From Flavobacterium frigoris (GTDB lineage: Bacteria; Bacteroidota; Bacteroidia; Flavobacteriales; Flavobacteriaceae), in assembly GCF_900111075.1 (NCBI RefSeq), contig NZ_FOFZ01000002.1:248001-312000 (forward strand): DNA of 64,000 nucleotides. Reading direction: 5' to 3'. A program made the translations under genes and the position numbers. Positions 12,533-51,571 of this stretch are shown here, in pieces; within the stretch, counting starts at the first letter, position 1, and each line of letters starts with the position of its first letter. The notes under the pieces are model-generated. The model was not told where the DNA came from and made no database searches. It saw only the letters and a list, made by a program, of their open reading frames with translations.

Positions 12533-12542
12533 TTTTTATTTT

Positions 12543-12686
12543 TAGCCCAGATGGAAATAAAAATCCTTAGGGATAAAAATGAATTTTTTCTAAACAAAAA
12601 AGAGCGACCAACGGAAGCTCCTTTATTGTTATTGAAAAAACCATTTTCATCCCTAAGATTGAAATGAACAGCTGGAATTGCTCCTG
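12543..12686. repeat. Dispersed intergenic hairpin element, family A, copy 1
   Basis: It starts TAGCCCaGATGGAA and ends AGCTGGAATTGCTCCTG, matching the ends of the copies at 47707 and 51468. The inner stem CTTAGGGAT / ATCCCTAAG differs from the other copies but still pairs. This copy is longer because an extra 45-base middle segment is present. It fills the space between the O-methyltransferase and PAP2 genes. Confidence 0.7.
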
Positions 12687-28076: not shown

Positions 28077-28106
28077 AGGGCTATTCATATCGAATAGCCT
28101 TTTTTA
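28077..28106 (+). terminator. gpmI terminator
   Basis: GGCTATTC / GAATAGCC hairpin with 5-base loop and a T6 tail. Confidence 0.88.
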
Positions 28107-28120
28107 TAAAAATAATCTAG

Positions 28121-28151
28121 GTATTACTATTATTTTCGATAGTAATACTAT
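28121..28151. promoter_or_regulatory. Inverted-repeat operator, probably for the TetR-family regulator
   Basis: GTATTACTAT (28121-28130), 8-base spacer, ATAGTAATAC (28139-28148): a perfect 10-bp inverted repeat. The right half is also part of the palindrome ATAGT-AAT-ACTAT (28139-28151). It abuts the -7 box at 28152, so a bound repressor would block the promoter of the operon that encodes the regulator. Confidence 0.7.
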
Positions 28152-28159
28152 TATATTTG
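28152..28159 (+). promoter_or_regulatory. -7 element of the LRR/TetR/export operon
   Basis: TATATTTG, directly after the operator and 28 bases before the GTG start. It excludes a TTG start at 28157. Confidence 0.65.
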
Positions 28160-28186: not shown

Positions 28187-28795
28187 GTGAAAAATTTACT
28201 TCTTCAATGTTTGATTATAACGCTACTATTTAATAGCAATAGTAATGCTCAAAATACTACTTCACTCTCAAACCCTGAGACGATTATTCGTCTTGATTTA
28301 AGCAACAACAAAATTGATTTAGAAAAAGTAGACTTCTCTAAGTTTGTTAATTTAGAATATCTAAGTTTAAAGGATGATCATTTAAAAGAACTACCTAAAG
28401 AATTGTTCTTGCTGAAAAAATTAAAAACATTAGATTTAAGTGGAAACGATTTTAAGGTGCTACCTAAAGACTTTTCAAGACTTAAAACCCTAGAAAATTT
28501 GTATTTAAATGATGAGGAAAACTTAGACTTACCTCAATCATTAAACATTTTAGCAAAGTTGCCAAATCTAAAATCGTTATATCTCGATAATGATCGAATC
28601 AATTATATGCCTAGTGAAATGTTAAAACTTCAAAATTTAGAGTATTTGAGTTTGCGTCAAAATGAATTAAAGGAATTCCCGAAAAACATTAATTCTTTAT
28701 CTCACTTAAAGCATTTATATTTGAATGAAAATAGCGTACCGCTTGACAACGTCGAACTTAAAAATATTAATTTTGGTTTTGAAATCGATTTTTAA
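28187..28795 (+). CDS. Secreted leucine-rich-repeat protein
   Basis: A 202-residue protein starting at GTG 28187, with a signal peptide (about 1-22, MKNLLLQCLIITLLFNSNSNAQ). The mature part consists of about six to seven leucine-rich repeats of 22-25 residues (pattern L-x-x-L-x-L-x-x-N-x-L/F-x-x-L-P), e.g. LKTLDLSGNDFKVLP and LEYLSLRQNELKEFP. No anchor, T9SS sorting domain or enzyme domain is seen. It leads the operon with a TetR regulator and type-I-like export genes, and lies 15 bases ahead of the TetR gene. It may be exported or act as a binding protein; its role is unknown. Confidence 0.8.
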   Translation: MKNLLLQCLIITLLFNSNSNAQNTTSLSNPETIIRLDLSNNKIDLEKVDFSKFVNLEYLSLKDDHLKELPKELFLLKKLKTLDLSGNDFKVLPKDFSRLKTLENLYLNDEENLDLPQSLNILAKLPNLKSLYLDNDRINYMPSEMLKLQNLEYLSLRQNELKEFPKNINSLSHLKHLYLNENSVPLDNVELKNINFGFEIDF

Positions 28796-28810
28796 ACGTA
28801 AACAATTCAA

Positions 28811-29494
28811 ATGCATAGTTTAATCACAAATATAAAAATTCAAATTTCAGATAAAATCTTTGTAAAAGATCCTGAAACATCAGTTCTTGGAAAAAAGATA
28901 ATTAAAGAAAGTATCATTTTAATAGATGAGATAGGGTTTGATAACTTTACTTTTAAAAAATTAGGTGCAAAAATTAATTCTAACGAAAGTTCAATCTATC
29001 GATACTTTGAAAACAAACATAAATTATTGTTGTATCTTTCTTCATGGTATTGGAGTTGGATTGAGTACAAATTATTTTTTGCCACAACCAACGTTGACGA
29101 TTCATTTGAAAAATTAAAAAAAGCGATAACTGTAGTAACAGAGAAAATTGAAGATGATCTGGCTACAGAACATATAAACGAATCCGTTTTAAATAAAATA
29201 GTCATTACCGAATTCACAAAAACGCTCCATACTAAAGAGGTTGACGAAGAAAACAAGGAAGGATTCTTTTTAATTTACAAACGAGTAATTACTCGATTAG
29301 TAGAATTAATAACTGAAGTAAATCCTGAATATCAATATGCTAGAAGTCTTGCGTCTTCGATCATTGAAGGGGCACTTCATCAGCATTTTTTAAGAGATCA
29401 TTTAAAAACAATTACTAATTGTAACGAGGAAATCAGTCCAACTGCATTTTACCTTAACCTTATTTTAACTTTACTAAAAAAAAATAGATCATGA
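28811..29494 (+). CDS. TetR/AcrR-family transcriptional regulator
   Basis: A 227-residue protein. The N-terminal helix-turn-helix domain (about 25-75) has LIDEIGFDNFTFKKLGAKINSNESSIYRYFENKHKLL, the typical TetR pattern ending in YRYFxNK. The C-terminal ligand domain has no recognisable ligand signature. It sits inside the operon it probably represses, downstream of a matching inverted-repeat operator. The stop overlaps the start of the ABC gene (ATGA). Confidence 0.9.
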   Translation: MHSLITNIKIQISDKIFVKDPETSVLGKKIIKESIILIDEIGFDNFTFKKLGAKINSNESSIYRYFENKHKLLLYLSSWYWSWIEYKLFFATTNVDDSFEKLKKAITVVTEKIEDDLATEHINESVLNKIVITEFTKTLHTKEVDEENKEGFFLIYKRVITRLVELITEVNPEYQYARSLASSIIEGALHQHFLRDHLKTITNCNEEISPTAFYLNLILTLLKKNRS

Positions 29495-31149
29495 CCCCTC
29501 TAAAACGACTTTACAACTTATTAGAGCTCGATAAGAAAGATTTAACCCAATTGTTCTTTTATGCTATCATAGCAGGATTAATAAGCTTATCATTACCTCT
29601 AGGAATTCAAGCAATTATTAATTTTATTCAATCAGGCAGAGTGAGTGTTTCATGGATTGTCCTTGTCATTCTTGTGGTTGTTGGGGTTGCTTTAGTAGGC
29701 CTACTATCCTTAATGCAATTAAGAATTACTGAAAATCTACAACAAAAAATATTTGTACGTTCTTCCTTTGAGTTTGCAGCACGGTTACCCAAAATAAAAT
29801 TTGAAGAGCTATACAACCACTATCCCCCAGAATTAGCAAATCGCTTTTTTGATACGCTTACAATTCAAAAAGGGGCTTCAAAATTATTATTAGATTTTCC
29901 TGCAGCAATACTGCAAATAGCTTTCGGAATCATTCTATTATCTTTATATCACCCCTTTTTCCTTGCATTAGGAGCGCTTTTATTTTTTCTTTTATATTTT
30001 ATTTTTAAATTTTCATTCAATCCAGGAGTACAAACCAGCCTAAATGAATCTAAATACAAATATAAAGTGGCAAGCTGGCTTCAAGAAATAGGCCGTAATA
30101 ATTATAGTTTTAGAGACGAGCTGAATTTTAAATACGCCTTACAAAAAAATGATAATCTAGTGGGTATTTATCTAAACAACAGAGAACAGCATTTTAATAT
30201 TATAAAGAGACAATTTACACAGTTAATTTTTTTCAAAATAATTATTACAGCGAGTTTATTGTCGGTGGGAGGGTATTTAGTGCTCAACCAATTAATGAAT
30301 ATTGGACAATTTGTTGCCTCTGAAATCATTATTTTGTTACTGATCAATTCAGTTGAAAAAATAATTATTGGGCTAGAAACCTTTTATGATGTTTTAACTG
30401 CTGTTGAAAAAATTGGACAAATCACAGACCTAGAGTTAGAAGAAGAATCAAAAACTAATGTTTTAAATTGTTTAACGAGTATCACCTTAGCGACAAATAA
30501 TCTGCGATTCAAATTTCCAGATTCGAAAGACAACATTTTGAAAAACTTAAACTTGAAAATTGAACAAGGGGAAAAAATACTTCTTGAAGGAGAGAACGCT
30601 TCTGGCAAAACAACCCTAATTAGATTGTTATCCGGGTTGATACAGCCTACTTCTGGTTCTTTTTATATCAATGACGAGACCTTTCAAAAACTTGATTTAC
30701 AACACTATAGATCCCATACAGGAACAATTATTAAAGGTGAAACGCCCTTTGAAGGAACGATTCTAGAAAACATTACTTTCAATGATAGTTCCATAAGTCA
30801 AGAAGATTTAAAATGGGCTTTAGATGGTGTCCAGTTAACCTCCTTTATTAAAACGTTGCCTAATGGATTAAACACCTTATTATTTCCAGAAGGCAGACAA
30901 CTGTCATCGTCAAATGCACAAAAAATACTATTAGCCCGCAGTATTATTCACAAACCAAAGATCTTGTTTTATGAAGATCCTACAGATGCAATGGATGAAA
31001 AAGTCGCTAATGAAATAATTGATTTTATAACCTCTGATAAAAATAAGTGGACCATTATTACTTCGTCGAAAAATCCATATTGGAATGTGAATTGCACCCG
31101 AAAAATAATCATGCACGAAGGACAAGTACTTTTAGACACTAAAAAATAG
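29491..31149 (+). CDS. ABC transporter (membrane plus ATPase domain), type I secretion-like, with degenerate ATPase motifs
   Basis: A 552-residue protein. An exporter-type membrane domain (about 15-310, five to six helices) is followed by a nucleotide-binding domain (about 330-552). Walker A is intact (GENASGKTT, about 366-374). The other motifs depart from consensus: the signature reads LSSSNAQ instead of LSGGQ (about 473), Walker B ends LFYEDP rather than LLDEP (about 492), and the switch histidine is replaced in ITSSKNP (about 525). The Q-loop region lacks an obvious Gln. There is no C39 peptidase domain. It is encoded with HlyD- and TolC-like partners, so export is expected, but with an atypical or weak ATPase. 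Confidence 0.85.
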   Translation: MTPLKRLYNLLELDKKDLTQLFFYAIIAGLISLSLPLGIQAIINFIQSGRVSVSWIVLVILVVVGVALVGLLSLMQLRITENLQQKIFVRSSFEFAARLPKIKFEELYNHYPPELANRFFDTLTIQKGASKLLLDFPAAILQIAFGIILLSLYHPFFLALGALLFFLLYFIFKFSFNPGVQTSLNESKYKYKVASWLQEIGRNNYSFRDELNFKYALQKNDNLVGIYLNNREQHFNIIKRQFTQLIFFKIIITASLLSVGGYLVLNQLMNIGQFVASEIIILLLINSVEKIIIGLETFYDVLTAVEKIGQITDLELEEESKTNVLNCLTSITLATNNLRFKFPDSKDNILKNLNLKIEQGEKILLEGENASGKTTLIRLLSGLIQPTSGSFYINDETFQKLDLQHYRSHTGTIIKGETPFEGTILENITFNDSSISQEDLKWALDGVQLTSFIKTLPNGLNTLLFPEGRQLSSSNAQKILLARSIIHKPKILFYEDPTDAMDEKVANEIIDFITSDKNKWTIITSSKNPYWNVNCTRKIIMHEGQVLLDTKK

Positions 31150-31153
31150 AAAA

Positions 31154-32503
31154 ATGCTTAATATATCTGACAATAATAAAACTCAGCTTCAATCTTTGGA
31201 TAAATACAAAACCATCCAAAATTTGAGTAATAAAGTACCGTATAAAATCCTAAATCGAATAATTACGCTAATTTCAATACTTGGATTTGCTATACTTTTC
31301 TTGCCTTGGACACAAAATATCTCTGGTACTGGTGCCGTTACAACTTTGAAGCCCAACCAAAGACCGCAATCAATTCAAAGTGTAATATCTGGTCGTTTAG
31401 AAAAATGGTATGTTCAAGAAGGAGACTTTGTAAATAAAGGGGACACAATCCTTTATATCTCTGAAATTAAAGAGGATTATATGGATCCAAATTTAGTAGA
31501 AAATACCAAAAACCAAGTGAATGCAAAAAAGCAATCTTTAGAGTCTTACGGTTTTAAAGTAACTACCCTTTCTAATCAAATTCAATCTATTAAAAATGAA
31601 CAAAAATTAAAAATCGAACAGGCTCAAAATAAAATTAAACAATCTGTTCTAAAAATAAAAAGCGACAGTATCGACCTAGTAGCTGTAAAAACAACCGTGA
31701 AAATTGCAAACACGCAATACAATAGATCGCTTCAACTCAATAATGAAGGTCTTAAACCCTTATCTGATGTAGAGGAAAAACGTTTAAAGCTTCAAGAAGC
31801 TGATGCAAAAATCATAACCCAAGAAAATAAGCTACTCACAAGTAAAAACGAGTACATCAATTCTAAAGTCGAAATCAATAGAATTAATGCCGAGTATGCC
31901 GAAAAGATTGCCAAAACACAAAGTGATCAATACACGGCATTAAGCAATCAGTTCGATACTGAGGCGCAGGTAAGTAAACTGGAAAACCAATACGTAAATT
32001 ATAGTATTCGAAATGGTCTCTATTACATTAAAGCAGCACAAAGTGGCTATATCAATAGAGCATTGCAATCTGGTATAGGAGAAACTATTAAGGAGGGAAC
32101 TCCCATTGTAACGATAATGCCCGCTGAGTATGACATCGCTGTTGAAACCTATGTCAACCCTATCGATCTTCCTTTACTGAGCACAGGCACAAAAGTTAGA
32201 GTGTGGTTTGATGGATGGCCAACGATCGTGTTTTCAGGATGGCCTGACATTTCATACGGTACCTTTGGTGGAAAAATTGTCGCAATAGGTAATTTTATAA
32301 GCCCGAACGGCCGATACAGAGTGTTGATTGCGCCAGATCAAAGCGAGGCAAAATGGCCAAAACAACTTAGCATTGGTTCAGGAGCACAAACAATTGCCTT
32401 GTTAAAAACTGTTCCTATCTGGTTTGAAGTTTGGAGAAATTTAAATGGATTCCCCCCTAATTATTACACAACAACAACTACAGAAACTAACCCAAAGAAA
32501 TAA
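31154..32503 (+). CDS. HlyD-family membrane fusion (periplasmic adaptor) protein
   Basis: A 449-residue protein with one N-terminal membrane helix (about 36-54, IITLISILGFAILFLPW). Two half-lipoyl segments (SGRLEKWYVQEGDFVNKGD near 77, and QSGYINRALQSGIGETIKEG near 295) flank a long coiled-coil hairpin (about 120-270). It links the inner-membrane ABC protein with the TolC-like channel. It is 4 bases after the ABC gene and overlaps the next start (TAATG). Confidence 0.92.
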   Translation: MLNISDNNKTQLQSLDKYKTIQNLSNKVPYKILNRIITLISILGFAILFLPWTQNISGTGAVTTLKPNQRPQSIQSVISGRLEKWYVQEGDFVNKGDTILYISEIKEDYMDPNLVENTKNQVNAKKQSLESYGFKVTTLSNQIQSIKNEQKLKIEQAQNKIKQSVLKIKSDSIDLVAVKTTVKIANTQYNRSLQLNNEGLKPLSDVEEKRLKLQEADAKIITQENKLLTSKNEYINSKVEINRINAEYAEKIAKTQSDQYTALSNQFDTEAQVSKLENQYVNYSIRNGLYYIKAAQSGYINRALQSGIGETIKEGTPIVTIMPAEYDIAVETYVNPIDLPLLSTGTKVRVWFDGWPTIVFSGWPDISYGTFGGKIVAIGNFISPNGRYRVLIAPDQSEAKWPKQLSIGSGAQTIALLKTVPIWFEVWRNLNGFPPNYYTTTTTETNPKK

Positions 32504-33891
32504 TGAAATACGTACTTCTCCTTTTTCTGTTGGTAGGATTTTCTGTCTTCGGACAAAAAAACAACGCAAGTGAATTCACCTATAATGAATATCTTGCCTA
32601 TGTGAAAAAATACCATCCACTAGTAAAAAATGCCAATTTAGAAATTAGTAAAGCACAGGCGAACCTCCTGATGGCTCGTGGTGGTTTTGACCCTAAAATC
32701 GAAGTTGATTTTAATAAAAAACAATTTAAAGGCACCGAGTATTATTCGATTTTGAACAGCAGCTTTAAGATCCCCACCTGGTATGGAATTGAGATTAAAG
32801 CTGGTTTTGACAATAACGAAGGGATTTACTTGAACCCTGAAAATACAGTTCCGAATAAAGGATTAACATCACTAGGAATAAGTGTTCCATTAGGACAAGG
32901 TTTGCTAATCAACCAAAGAATGGCTGATGTAAGAAAAGCCAAAATACAAATCCAACTGAGCCAAGCAGAGCGAAAACTACAAGCTATTGCTGTTTTATAT
33001 GATGCTTCTCTATCTTATTTTAATTGGAAAAAAGCCCACAATGAAGTTAAATTGTATGAAAATTATAAAGTAAATGCAGAAACTCGATATAAAGGAATTC
33101 AATCTTTAATTAAACAAGGTGACAAACCGGCAATTGACAGTATAGAAGCTGGAATCATTGTGAAAAATAGATTGCTTAGTTTAGAAGATGCCCAACTTAA
33201 ATTAAACAAAGCAAAACTGGAATTATCTAATTTTCTTTGGTTAGAGAACAATATTCCGCTAGAACTTTCAGATGCGCTAATTCCAGAAAGCCAATTGGAA
33301 TTCACTATTCAAGAAACTTTAAAAACAAATGATTTAGTAAATCAGGACTTTGACATTGCTAATCATCCAAAAATAAACGCTCTTACTTCCAAAATCGATA
33401 TTTTAACTATTGAAAAGAAATTAAAAGCGAATATGTTATTGCCCAAAATTGATATTGGTTATACTTATTTGTCTGAACCAAGCTATATTGACAACTATCA
33501 ATTTCAAGATTACAAAATTGGTTTGGATTTTTATTTTCCTCTGTTTTTAAGAAAAGAGCGTGGAAGTTTAAAATTGGCCAAGTACAAAATACAGGAAACT
33601 GAGTTCGTTTTGAATTTAGAGAAAGTTCAGTTAACCAATAAAATCAATGCTCAAAAATTTGAAATCGAATCACTTTCGAAACAGAAAGCATTAATTAAGG
33701 CTCTGGTTAAAGACAATGGTACCATGCTTAATGCCGAAGAACGCTTGTTTTCTATTGGCGAAAGCTCGCTTTTTTTAATCAACACTCGCGAAAACAATTT
33801 GGTTAGCGCACAGCTTGCACAAATAATATTAGAGAATCGTTTTTACGTTTCCAATTCGGAACTTTTTAAAATCATGGCCAATCCTGATTAA
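32503..33891 (+). CDS. TolC-family outer-membrane channel protein
   Basis: A 462-residue protein with a signal peptide (about 1-17, ending VFGQ). Two helical repeats have the usual TolC composition (e.g. EYLAYVKKYHPLVKNANLEISKAQANLL, and a second half from about 255). It supplies the outer-membrane exit duct for the ABC/HlyD pair. It is last in the operon; no clear terminator hairpin follows before map. Confidence 0.9.
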   Translation: MKYVLLLFLLVGFSVFGQKNNASEFTYNEYLAYVKKYHPLVKNANLEISKAQANLLMARGGFDPKIEVDFNKKQFKGTEYYSILNSSFKIPTWYGIEIKAGFDNNEGIYLNPENTVPNKGLTSLGISVPLGQGLLINQRMADVRKAKIQIQLSQAERKLQAIAVLYDASLSYFNWKKAHNEVKLYENYKVNAETRYKGIQSLIKQGDKPAIDSIEAGIIVKNRLLSLEDAQLKLNKAKLELSNFLWLENNIPLELSDALIPESQLEFTIQETLKTNDLVNQDFDIANHPKINALTSKIDILTIEKKLKANMLLPKIDIGYTYLSEPSYIDNYQFQDYKIGLDFYFPLFLRKERGSLKLAKYKIQETEFVLNLEKVQLTNKINAQKFEIESLSKQKALIKALVKDNGTMLNAEERLFSIGESSLFLINTRENNLVSAQLAQIILENRFYVSNSELFKIMANPD

Positions 33892-42940: not shown

Positions 42941-43037
42941 TGGGCGTGACCACAAGGGTCGGGCTATACGTTGCAATCTTTTATTCATTCCGCTAGCGCT
43001 ACATGATAAAAGGATTTCCACTACCATCCCTCACGCA
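42941..43037. repeat. Dispersed-type intergenic element (family C)
   Basis: GC-richer segment that begins GGGCGTGACC and ends CCATCCCTCACGC, with GCGTGA/TCACGC at the two ends as short inverted repeats and GATAAAAGGATTTCC inside. The sequence resembles an interspersed element I recall from flavobacterial intergenic regions. Only one copy is present in this window. Confidence 0.45.
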
Positions 43038-43064
43038 AAAAACATCATATACATACAATCATAT

Positions 43065-47678: not shown

Positions 47679-47706
47679 ATTTATTGAAAACCCTACTGTT
47701 TCTCTC

Positions 47707-47800
47707 TAGCCCTGATGGAAGTGAAAATCCTTTTTATCCTGTCTCGTTTTAAAACGAGACAGGATAAAAAGATTGTAGCGCACAGCAGGACGACTGTTGA
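47707..47800. repeat. Dispersed intergenic hairpin element, family A, copy 2
   Basis: Begins TAGCCCTGATGGAAGTG and ends GTAGCGCACAGCAGGA. The centre (47730-47771) is a perfect 42-bp palindrome without a loop, CTTTTTATCCTGTCTCGTTTT joined to its reverse complement. It lies between the FMN reductase terminator and the fabD promoter. Confidence 0.8.
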
Positions 47801-51436: not shown

Positions 51437-51467
51437 TTTAATTTTTTATTAATCGGACTCGTTTTTA

Positions 51468-51571
51468 TAGCCCTGATTGAAACGGCATCCTTTTTATCCT
51501 GAACTTGTTTCCAGATTCTGAAACAAGTTCAGTATAAAAAGATATAGTGGAAAGCAGGAAATAGCTCCTGG
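51468..51571. repeat. Dispersed intergenic hairpin element, family A, copy 3
   Basis: Begins TAGCCCTGATTGAA and ends GGAAAGCAGGAAATAGCTCCTGG. A 22-bp stem (51490-51511 with 51520-51541) has one mismatch and is different in sequence from copy 2 past the first 12 bases. Confidence 0.8.

Follow-up and report, generated by a model that had tools for sequence, protein, structure and literature searches.

A putatively TetR-regulated Flavobacterium operon encodes an ABC-exporter-fold protein with degenerate ATPase motifs, a HlyD adaptor, a TolC channel and an optional leucine-rich repeat protein

Results

The DNA analysed here (the window) is a stretch of 64,000 nucleotides from Flavobacterium frigoris (contig NZ_FOFZ01000002.1, positions 248,001 to 312,000, forward strand). 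Within the window, five genes in a row on the + strand encode a leucine-rich repeat (LRR) protein, a TetR-family regulator, a protein with the fold of an ATP-binding cassette (ABC) exporter, a HlyD-type periplasmic adaptor and a TolC-type outer-membrane channel. The run and its coordinates match a preliminary description made from the sequence, and so does its tight packing, the four junctions being, in order, 15 bp, an ATGA overlap, 4 bp and a TAATG overlap. The LRR gene (28187-28795, 202 aa) starts with GTG, and its product has an N-terminus that reads by eye as Sec-type. It is followed by tetR (28811-29494), the gene for the ABC-exporter-fold protein (29491-31149, 552 aa), the HlyD gene (31154-32503, 449 aa) and the TolC gene (32503-33891, 462 aa), whose product also has a Sec-type N-terminus.

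Domain searches gave each gene its identity. The LRR protein matched Pfam LRR_8 (2.5e-19), with LRR_4 likewise above cut-off, and the regulator carries a helix-turn-helix domain (TetR_N, PF00440, 2.1e-7; 31.1 bits against a cut-off of 24). Matches above cut-off were obtained for the adaptor with Biotin_lipoyl_2 (1.4e-9) and HlyD_3 (2.9e-9) and for the channel with OEP (2.8e-38). The ABC protein matched ABC_tran (6.4e-21), and its ABC_membrane score of 26.3 bits fell just under the 28-bit cut-off. NCBIfam type I secretion models matched the HlyD and TolC proteins only below cut-off (TIGR01843, 88 bits against 208.65, in the case of HlyD), and the best NCBIfam match of the ABC protein, TIGR03375, reached 174.5 bits against 693.1. 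In a sequence search of the PDB, the ABC protein matched numerous ABC transporter chains, and HlyD matched one entry, EmrA (E 6.7e-6). As had been remarked beforehand, no C39 domain was matched in the ABC protein by the Pfam scan.

The nucleotide-binding domain (NBD) of the ABC protein (residues 330-552; 30478-31146, + strand) retains an intact Walker A motif, GENASGKT. The LSGGQ signature is replaced by LSSSN, the Walker-B DE pair by ED and the switch His by Ser. The Q-loop Gln position is occupied by Lys and varies among relatives. These replacements were followed in related loci, whose closest named carriers are Flavobacterium species: 79 from the family and genus (set 1), 80 named loci (set 3, the named set), a phylum set of 20 and a further 20 (set 4), of which 7 have an ABC protein with an NBD. 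Sets 1 and 3 have species in common and are not independent; one guessed region with no ABC gene (L116) was excluded from every count. In set 1, Walker A was present in 78/79 proteins and the signature, the Walker-B DE pair and the switch His in 0/79 each; one regular-expression match to the signature (L094) was judged a false positive. The named set gave 78 of 80 for Walker A and 0 for each of the other three motifs, and set 4 gave 7 of 7 and again 0 for each. The controls, six further ABC exporters from this genome, displayed Walker A in 6, the signature in 6, DE in 5 and His in 6.

The NBDs of relatives are under purifying selection, with dN/dS values of 0.02-0.09 in 10 of 11 pairs, the remaining pair being saturated. 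An AF2 model of the ABC protein (pLDDT 84.7) has a normal exporter fold with a transmembrane domain (TMD) and an NBD, and resembles HlyB (8dck) at TM 0.90. The preliminary description spoke of a type-I-like export machine; architecture and fold bear this out, and the motor does not, as the residues for ATPase signature, catalysis and switch are gone. Among the sequence features of a competent type I secretion ATPase, Walker A alone is retained, and classing the cassette with type I secretion systems is therefore unwarranted. Judged by its motifs, the ABC protein is no conventional ATP-driven motor of such a system.

A tree of the ABC proteins was built from membrane-domain columns with a quick method, SH-aLRT support and a midpoint root. 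On it, a single clade of 93 rows (SH-aLRT 100) unites the degenerate proteins. The seven rows outside it have DE in 7/7 and the switch His in 6/7. Inside the clade, one protein lacks Walker A (L183) and four lack any NBD (L178-L181). A survey of one family (121 genomes) gave 46 matches, of which 30 were full length, 15 were TMD-only and one was cut by a contig end; two further TMD-only loci from the phylum sample bring the total to 17 (L178-L181, L287-L299). Their proteins are 332-339 aa as called, and HlyD and TolC genes lie directly downstream in 17/17, just as they follow the ABC gene in 79/79 loci of set 1. A profile of cassette-family NBDs found no NBD-like open reading frame (ORF) at 16 of the 17 loci; the other (L179) has one on the opposite strand (E 7.9e-5). 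At 11/17 TMD-only loci the gene is preceded by one for a small protein with PPP[ND] a few residues from its end. Three such proteins were scanned and none reached a Pfam cut-off. Together with a CusB-type adaptor in L180 they may hint at metal efflux.

The promoter region of the leading gene in the operon carries a conserved palindromic site. The putative TetR operator (28122-28151, + strand), supported by site search and comparison with relatives, consists of the arms TATTACTAT and ATAGTAATA and the palindrome ATAGTAATACTAT (28139-28151). Adjoining the palindrome is TATATTTG (28152-28159, + strand), which we take to be a Bacteroidota-type -7 box (consensus TAnnTTTG). Palindrome and box together, ATAGTAATACTATTATATTTG (28139-28159), match the pattern ATAGTANTACTATTANNTTTG exactly. 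At up to 3 mismatches this is the only match in the window, where shuffled sequences gave a mean of 0.22 and at least one match in 17/100 shuffles. In the whole genome it is the only exact match; allowing 3 mismatches yields 41 places, as compared to 19 for the reversed control. A second regulon member was sought in the genome and rejected: the long pattern has no other exact site, and a match to a shorter pattern (contig C28) lies inside a coding ORF and is attributed to chance.

The position of the site in relatives depends on the gene that comes first. Set 1 comprises 7 loci with no detected tetR, 48 with tetR and no LRR gene, and 24 with an LRR gene. The site was found upstream of tetR in 47/48 of the loci with adjacent tetR and no LRR gene (up to 2 mismatches). 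Where the LRR gene is present, the site precedes it within 200 bp in 21/24 loci and within 1.1 kb in 23/24 (up to 3 mismatches); in two of them (L039, L040) it precedes a DUF2490 gene that stands in front of the LRR gene. The 24th locus (L044) has no upstream site, begins at a contig end, and is the 1/24 in which the gap between the LRR gene and tetR holds a site (up to 3 mismatches). The named set (18 loci with no detected tetR, 10 with the LRR gene, 52 with tetR and no LRR gene) gave a site before the LRR gene in 10/10 and before tetR in 47/52 (up to 2 mismatches). Beyond the family the site is less well kept, with 3/4 loci of set 4 and 2/6 of the phylum set having one at up to 3 mismatches. 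As background, 50/4000 draws of random 260-bp stretches of the loci reached 3 mismatches or fewer, true sites included. The LRR gene thus occupies a slot between operator and tetR, which would place it and the exporter genes under one putative TetR switch. This agrees with the single operator proposed for the operon: one operator-like site upstream of the LRR gene would serve the LRR gene and the exporter run, and the window holds no second match at up to 3 mismatches.

The LRR model (pLDDT 83.5) is a solenoid with eight strands about 23 residues apart, and Foldseek agrees with an LRR fold. Its C-terminus (28760-28795) carries NFGFxIxF, conserved across the LRR family, which we take to resemble an outer-membrane beta-signal. 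Type III effector and internalin identities were considered for this protein and rejected, the NCBIfam scores being far under cut-off.

The ABC gene was found in 198/299 genomes of the family and 143/199 of the genus; three of the 143 genus matches are distant (G403, G320, G470; 36-37% identity) and three partial (G319, G382, G445). LRR orthologues, accepted at E 8.3e-34 or better (the next matches, at E 3.5e-18 or weaker, being generic LRR proteins), occur in 27/199 genus genomes, all 27 of which bear the ABC gene. Of these, 26 adjoin the ABC gene, one copy (G445) having internal stops, and one (G319) lies on another contig of a fragmented assembly. These two genomes are not represented among the 24 loci with an LRR gene, in all of which (24/24) the LRR gene is on the same strand as the ABC gene and 669-2112 bp upstream of it. 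The proposed association of LRR and export genes therefore recurs. The further suggestion, that a neighbourhood survey might reveal the LRR as a constant partner of the ABC gene, is not supported, since no LRR orthologue was detected in 116/143 of the ABC-bearing genus genomes. The unit is TetR-ABC-HlyD-TolC with interchangeable accessory genes, and the LRR gene is a real, co-regulated and optional member.

On the ABC tree, LRR presence and absence must have switched 14 times or more; this count scores L182 and L185 as lacking the LRR gene, since theirs were identified afterwards. LRR divergence correlates with that of TetR, ABC and HlyD (Spearman 0.64, 0.48 and 0.48; 25 rows; 0/2000 permutations each). 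It also correlates with the divergence of the neighbouring phosphoglycerate mutase (iPGM; 0.58, 20 rows, 1/2000 permutations), so that much of the co-divergence reflects vertical descent. The LRR proteins of L038, L041, L057 and L218 were aligned from a start inside the longest ORF, that of L218 also in the structure alignment.

Other occupants of the slot in relatives are TerC, DUF2490 and MscS-like genes, and in L052 a carbonic anhydrase gene lies behind a second copy of the site. The slot can be filled with no LRR gene present, as by TerC in F. aquatile (L228) and DUF2490 in F. paronense (L232). In set 1, a short TerC gene is present at 14/24 loci with the LRR gene as compared to 0/55 without. 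Next to the cassette of L057 (7650-9008), TerC and the LRR form an in-frame fusion, a single ORF of 453 aa. A different family of the order has, in L182, a carbonic anhydrase-LRR-DUF2490 cluster in divergent orientation to TetR-ABC-HlyD-TolC; two operator-like sites were seen by eye in the intergenic stretch, which the regular expression did not match. In that family 9/148 genomes have an LRR relative (E 1e-25 or better), with adjacency inspected in one. In L185 the LRR gene and tetR share a strand, with the LRR gene some 3.6 kb upstream. A chimeric-looking gene stands behind the operator in L040 (10168-10917), whose start resembles the carbonic anhydrase of neighbouring genomes and then runs into a DUF2490 barrel.

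Some relatives of the cassette have neighbours identified by Pfam as an SbtA-type permease (PF05982), SulP (PF00916) or beta-carbonic anhydrase (PF00484). L085 carries a single run of SbtA-carbonic anhydrase-ABC-HlyD-TolC, and a bicarbonate transporter or carbonic anhydrase also stands by the cassette in L182, L303 and L048; carbonic anhydrase or SulP was likewise found near it in L291 and L238. Among 35 SbtA genes in 67 genomes, 9 are no more than 10 kb from the ABC gene, as compared to about 0.2 expected by our own arithmetic; the 67 are drawn from 80 genomes with loci, own genome included, the 35 include its broken gene and a fragment in G451, and several of the nine cases are related to one another. 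Within 6 kb of the ABC gene, carbonic anhydrase was present in 1/20 loci of the phylum set; the named set (80 loci) had carbonic anhydrase in 3, SulP in 1 and SbtA in 3, and set 4 (20 loci) had 2, 1 and 1. In one further genome (G334; L309, 8311-12277), SulP-carbonic anhydrase-DUF2490 and the gene for a sister TetR, which matches the cassette TetR profile at E 2.2e-79, are in divergent orientation, with the perfect palindrome GATAGTAATACTATC in between. Two candidates for this gene company were rejected: a 106-aa protein beside SbtA, considered as SbtB-like (L079), has no Pfam match, and the SbtA/SbtB identity guessed from length for neighbours in L088 was not borne out.

The operon is flanked by genes for phosphoglycerate mutase upstream and methionine aminopeptidase downstream. 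After the former, a terminator-like inverted repeat, GGCTATTC...GAATAGCC, with a T run was seen by eye (28079-28105, + strand). The preliminary description saw no RTX or double-glycine substrate; none was noticed among the listed ORFs (at least 60 aa) near the operon, although no search was aimed at substrates. Nor was a small exported peptide seen by eye among ORFs of at least 60 aa or between the genes, shorter ORFs not being listed. A viral origin was considered and rejected, a single-protein search of viral contigs, limited to close relatives, having returned no relative. Elsewhere in the window, four Flavo-1 RNAs (RF01705) score above the gathering score (12540-12682, 42953-43041, 47704-47796 and 51465-51565). 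In the F. johnsoniae-like clade (L251, L252, L254-L266, L269) the ABC gene is preceded by one for a protein of some 134 aa, whose sequence was seen in L251, L255 and L258, and the L258 copy has no Pfam match.

Discussion

The explanation we favour, to which we give roughly even chances, is that this is a TetR-autoregulated operon for a motorless, pseudo-ABC tripartite envelope conduit descended from type I secretion systems. TetR would repress one transcript, LRR-TetR-ABC-HlyD-TolC, and release it on some signal, perhaps one tied to CO2/bicarbonate, pH or envelope stress. The membrane domain of the pseudo-ABC protein, as an ABC-fold dimer, may still organise HlyD and TolC into a trans-envelope conduit. 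Its NBD would lack the usual ATP hydrolysis, and ATP binding would be at most structural or a gating signal. The complex would then act as a conduit or as a secondary, ion-gradient-driven exporter and not as an ATP-driven one. LmrA stripped of its NBD (LmrA-MD), reported to be a secondary-active translocator, sets a precedent (PMC6155054). The LRR protein may be a co-regulated periplasmic add-on, a binding or scaffold partner, and one of several accessories (TerC, a DUF2490 barrel, MscS-like protein, carbonic anhydrase) encoded between operator and tetR. Homeostasis of inorganic carbon, pH or the envelope is suggested by the company that some relatives keep, namely SbtA, SulP, beta-carbonic anhydrase and a sister TetR sharing the palindrome. 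Of this picture, gene order, the shared operator-like site, co-occurrence, motif loss, NBD-free relatives and carbon genes near a minority of loci come from computation, whereas loss of ATPase activity, TetR binding, conduit function, the substrate and the part played by the LRR protein are inferred. A more specific version, in which the system is a natural ATPase-free tripartite transporter that works as a gated or ion-driven conduit, likely with bicarbonate or another small anion as cargo, and LRR, DUF2490, TerC and carbonic anhydrase are periplasmic or outer-membrane partners under one TetR switch, appears unlikely.

Several observations weigh against these readings. A degenerate NBD with an intact Walker A is no proof of lost hydrolysis, and some relatives retain the Q-loop Gln. 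Rows outside the degenerate clade have loose signatures themselves (LPYGV, LPGGL), with S-x-G-[EQ] only in L192 and L195; with these and a midpoint root, the order of motif loss is not proved. The operator (up to 3 mismatches) was found in only 2/6 phylum-set loci with adjacent tetR, and the cassette of the F. johnsoniae-like clade showed neither a TetR gene nor an operator next to it. As families, TerC and DUF2490 are widespread in any case, present in 51/51 and 47/51 genomes. The carbon-gene association is confined to a minority of set 1 loci (within 6 kb, SbtA in 8/79 and carbonic anhydrase in 3/79), many of the loci with carbon genes being in related lineages. The window holds no relative of the SbtA, SulP, carbonic anhydrase, TerC, DUF2490, MscS or LysR representatives, and the SbtA gene of this genome is broken and on another contig. 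Finally, in the LmrA study one ion current required ATP binding, and LmrA-MD gave none under that condition (PMC6155054).

The broken SbtA gene itself (G000:C15:73366-74251; L311) is in two pieces with internal stops, near LysR- and TerC-type genes.

Two alternatives would restore ATP hydrolysis to the system. In one, the operon is an ordinary TetR-repressed efflux or peptide pump, whose homodimer hydrolyses ATP at an unusual site and moves a toxic compound through HlyD and TolC, the LRR being incidental. The exporter fold, a TetR gene adjoining the pump, a Walker A intact in 78/79 and purifying selection on the NBD would all suit such a pump, but the loss of signature, Walker-B pair and switch His in 79/79 and the retention of HlyD and TolC by NBD-free relatives at 17/17 loci argue against it, and we consider it improbable. 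In the other, the degenerate protein pairs with a motor encoded elsewhere, either a canonical half-transporter of the ABC type or an ATPase that stands alone. Other ABC proteins abound in the genome (33 places matched, cassette gene included), and the structure search also matched the heterodimeric exporters TM287/288 and TmrAB. However, degeneracy affects the protein's own Walker B and His as well as the signature that it would offer to a partner, 16/17 TMD-only loci have no NBD-like ORF, and a second ABC gene is not found beside the cassette as a rule, one locus (L248) having an extra ABC-like ORF. This alternative seems to us quite improbable.

The LRR protein may instead be a mere passenger, a gene of the kind that enters the slot behind the operator and promoter and is expressed with no role in the exporter. 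Its patchy spread, with at least 14 changes on the tree and no orthologue in 116/143 ABC-bearing genus genomes, would be expected of a passenger, as would the use of the same slot by other genes. Set against this are the confinement of the genus orthologues to cassette-bearing genomes (27/27), a divergence that tracks TetR, ABC and HlyD (though shared ancestry explains much of it), the carbonic anhydrase-LRR-DUF2490 cluster divergent from the cassette in another family, and the TerC-LRR fusion together with the 14/24 against 0/55 distribution of short TerC, although F. aquatile has TerC with no LRR gene. On balance, a passenger is somewhat unlikely. That the LRR protein is itself the substrate of a type I system would explain their sharing an operon, but the protein carries a Sec-type signal of its own and the LRR gene is missing from most cassettes, which makes this highly improbable.

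The favoured explanation, a motorless conduit, has consequences for annotation, since genes of this sort are annotated by domain name as type I secretion or drug efflux powered by ATP. A dead motor would make many Bacteroidota annotations misleading: there are 588 stretches that encode relatives, and the ATPase motifs were checked in 182 sequences with an NBD. The cassette would then also be a natural experiment on whether the membrane domain of an ABC exporter can function in the absence of ATP hydrolysis. The single operator and interchangeable slot make a tetR deletion a simple handle on function, and the carbonic anhydrase and bicarbonate-transporter company in some relatives makes function open to a cheap low-CO2 growth phenotype.

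Comparison with known systems

The five-gene combination had been described as having no recognised name, and none was found in the open-access literature, searched mostly through titles and the starts of abstracts; within the same scope, nothing relevant linked SbtA, carbonic anhydrase, Flavobacteri, TolC and TetR. The nearest relatives by architecture are type I secretion systems (HlyB-HlyD-TolC; LssB-type, TIGR03375), with which the cassette shares ABC, HlyD and TolC genes in a row and a HlyB-like fold. Unlike these, its ABC protein has no C39 match, signature, Walker-B pair or switch His, and the genes are accompanied by tetR and optional LRR, TerC, DUF2490 and carbonic anhydrase genes.

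TM287/288 and TmrAB are heterodimeric ABC exporters with one degenerate site. They resemble the cassette ABC protein in having a degenerate NBD in an exporter fold, and both are among its fold matches. The cassette protein differs in being degenerate on both faces, and some of its relatives are NBD-free; at the window locus there is a single ABC gene and no partner subunit with a canonical site. Bicarbonate uptake genes of the SbtA, SulP and carbonic anhydrase kind adjoin the cassette in some relatives, and in one case SulP-carbonic anhydrase-DUF2490 lies opposite a sister TetR that has the same palindrome, whereas no such gene is present in this window. One paper describes DUF2490 as a putative porin family of unestablished function.

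In the case of the LRR protein, the secreted Leptospira LRR protein LIC12234 (4tzh) is a solenoid of similar size with 34% identity over the alignment, and the best E-value in the structure search belonged to LIC10831 (4u06). The protein of the window differs from the Leptospira proteins in that it sits inside a putatively TetR-controlled export operon and ends in NFGFxIxF. LmrA-MD is likewise an ABC exporter membrane domain without an NBD; it is a laboratory truncation, whereas the cassette relatives have lost the NBD naturally and keep HlyD and TolC genes adjacent. The parts of the cassette are thus of known kinds, and the natural pseudo-ABC and TMD-only versions of a HlyD-TolC system appear, as far as our searches of the open-access literature go, to be new.

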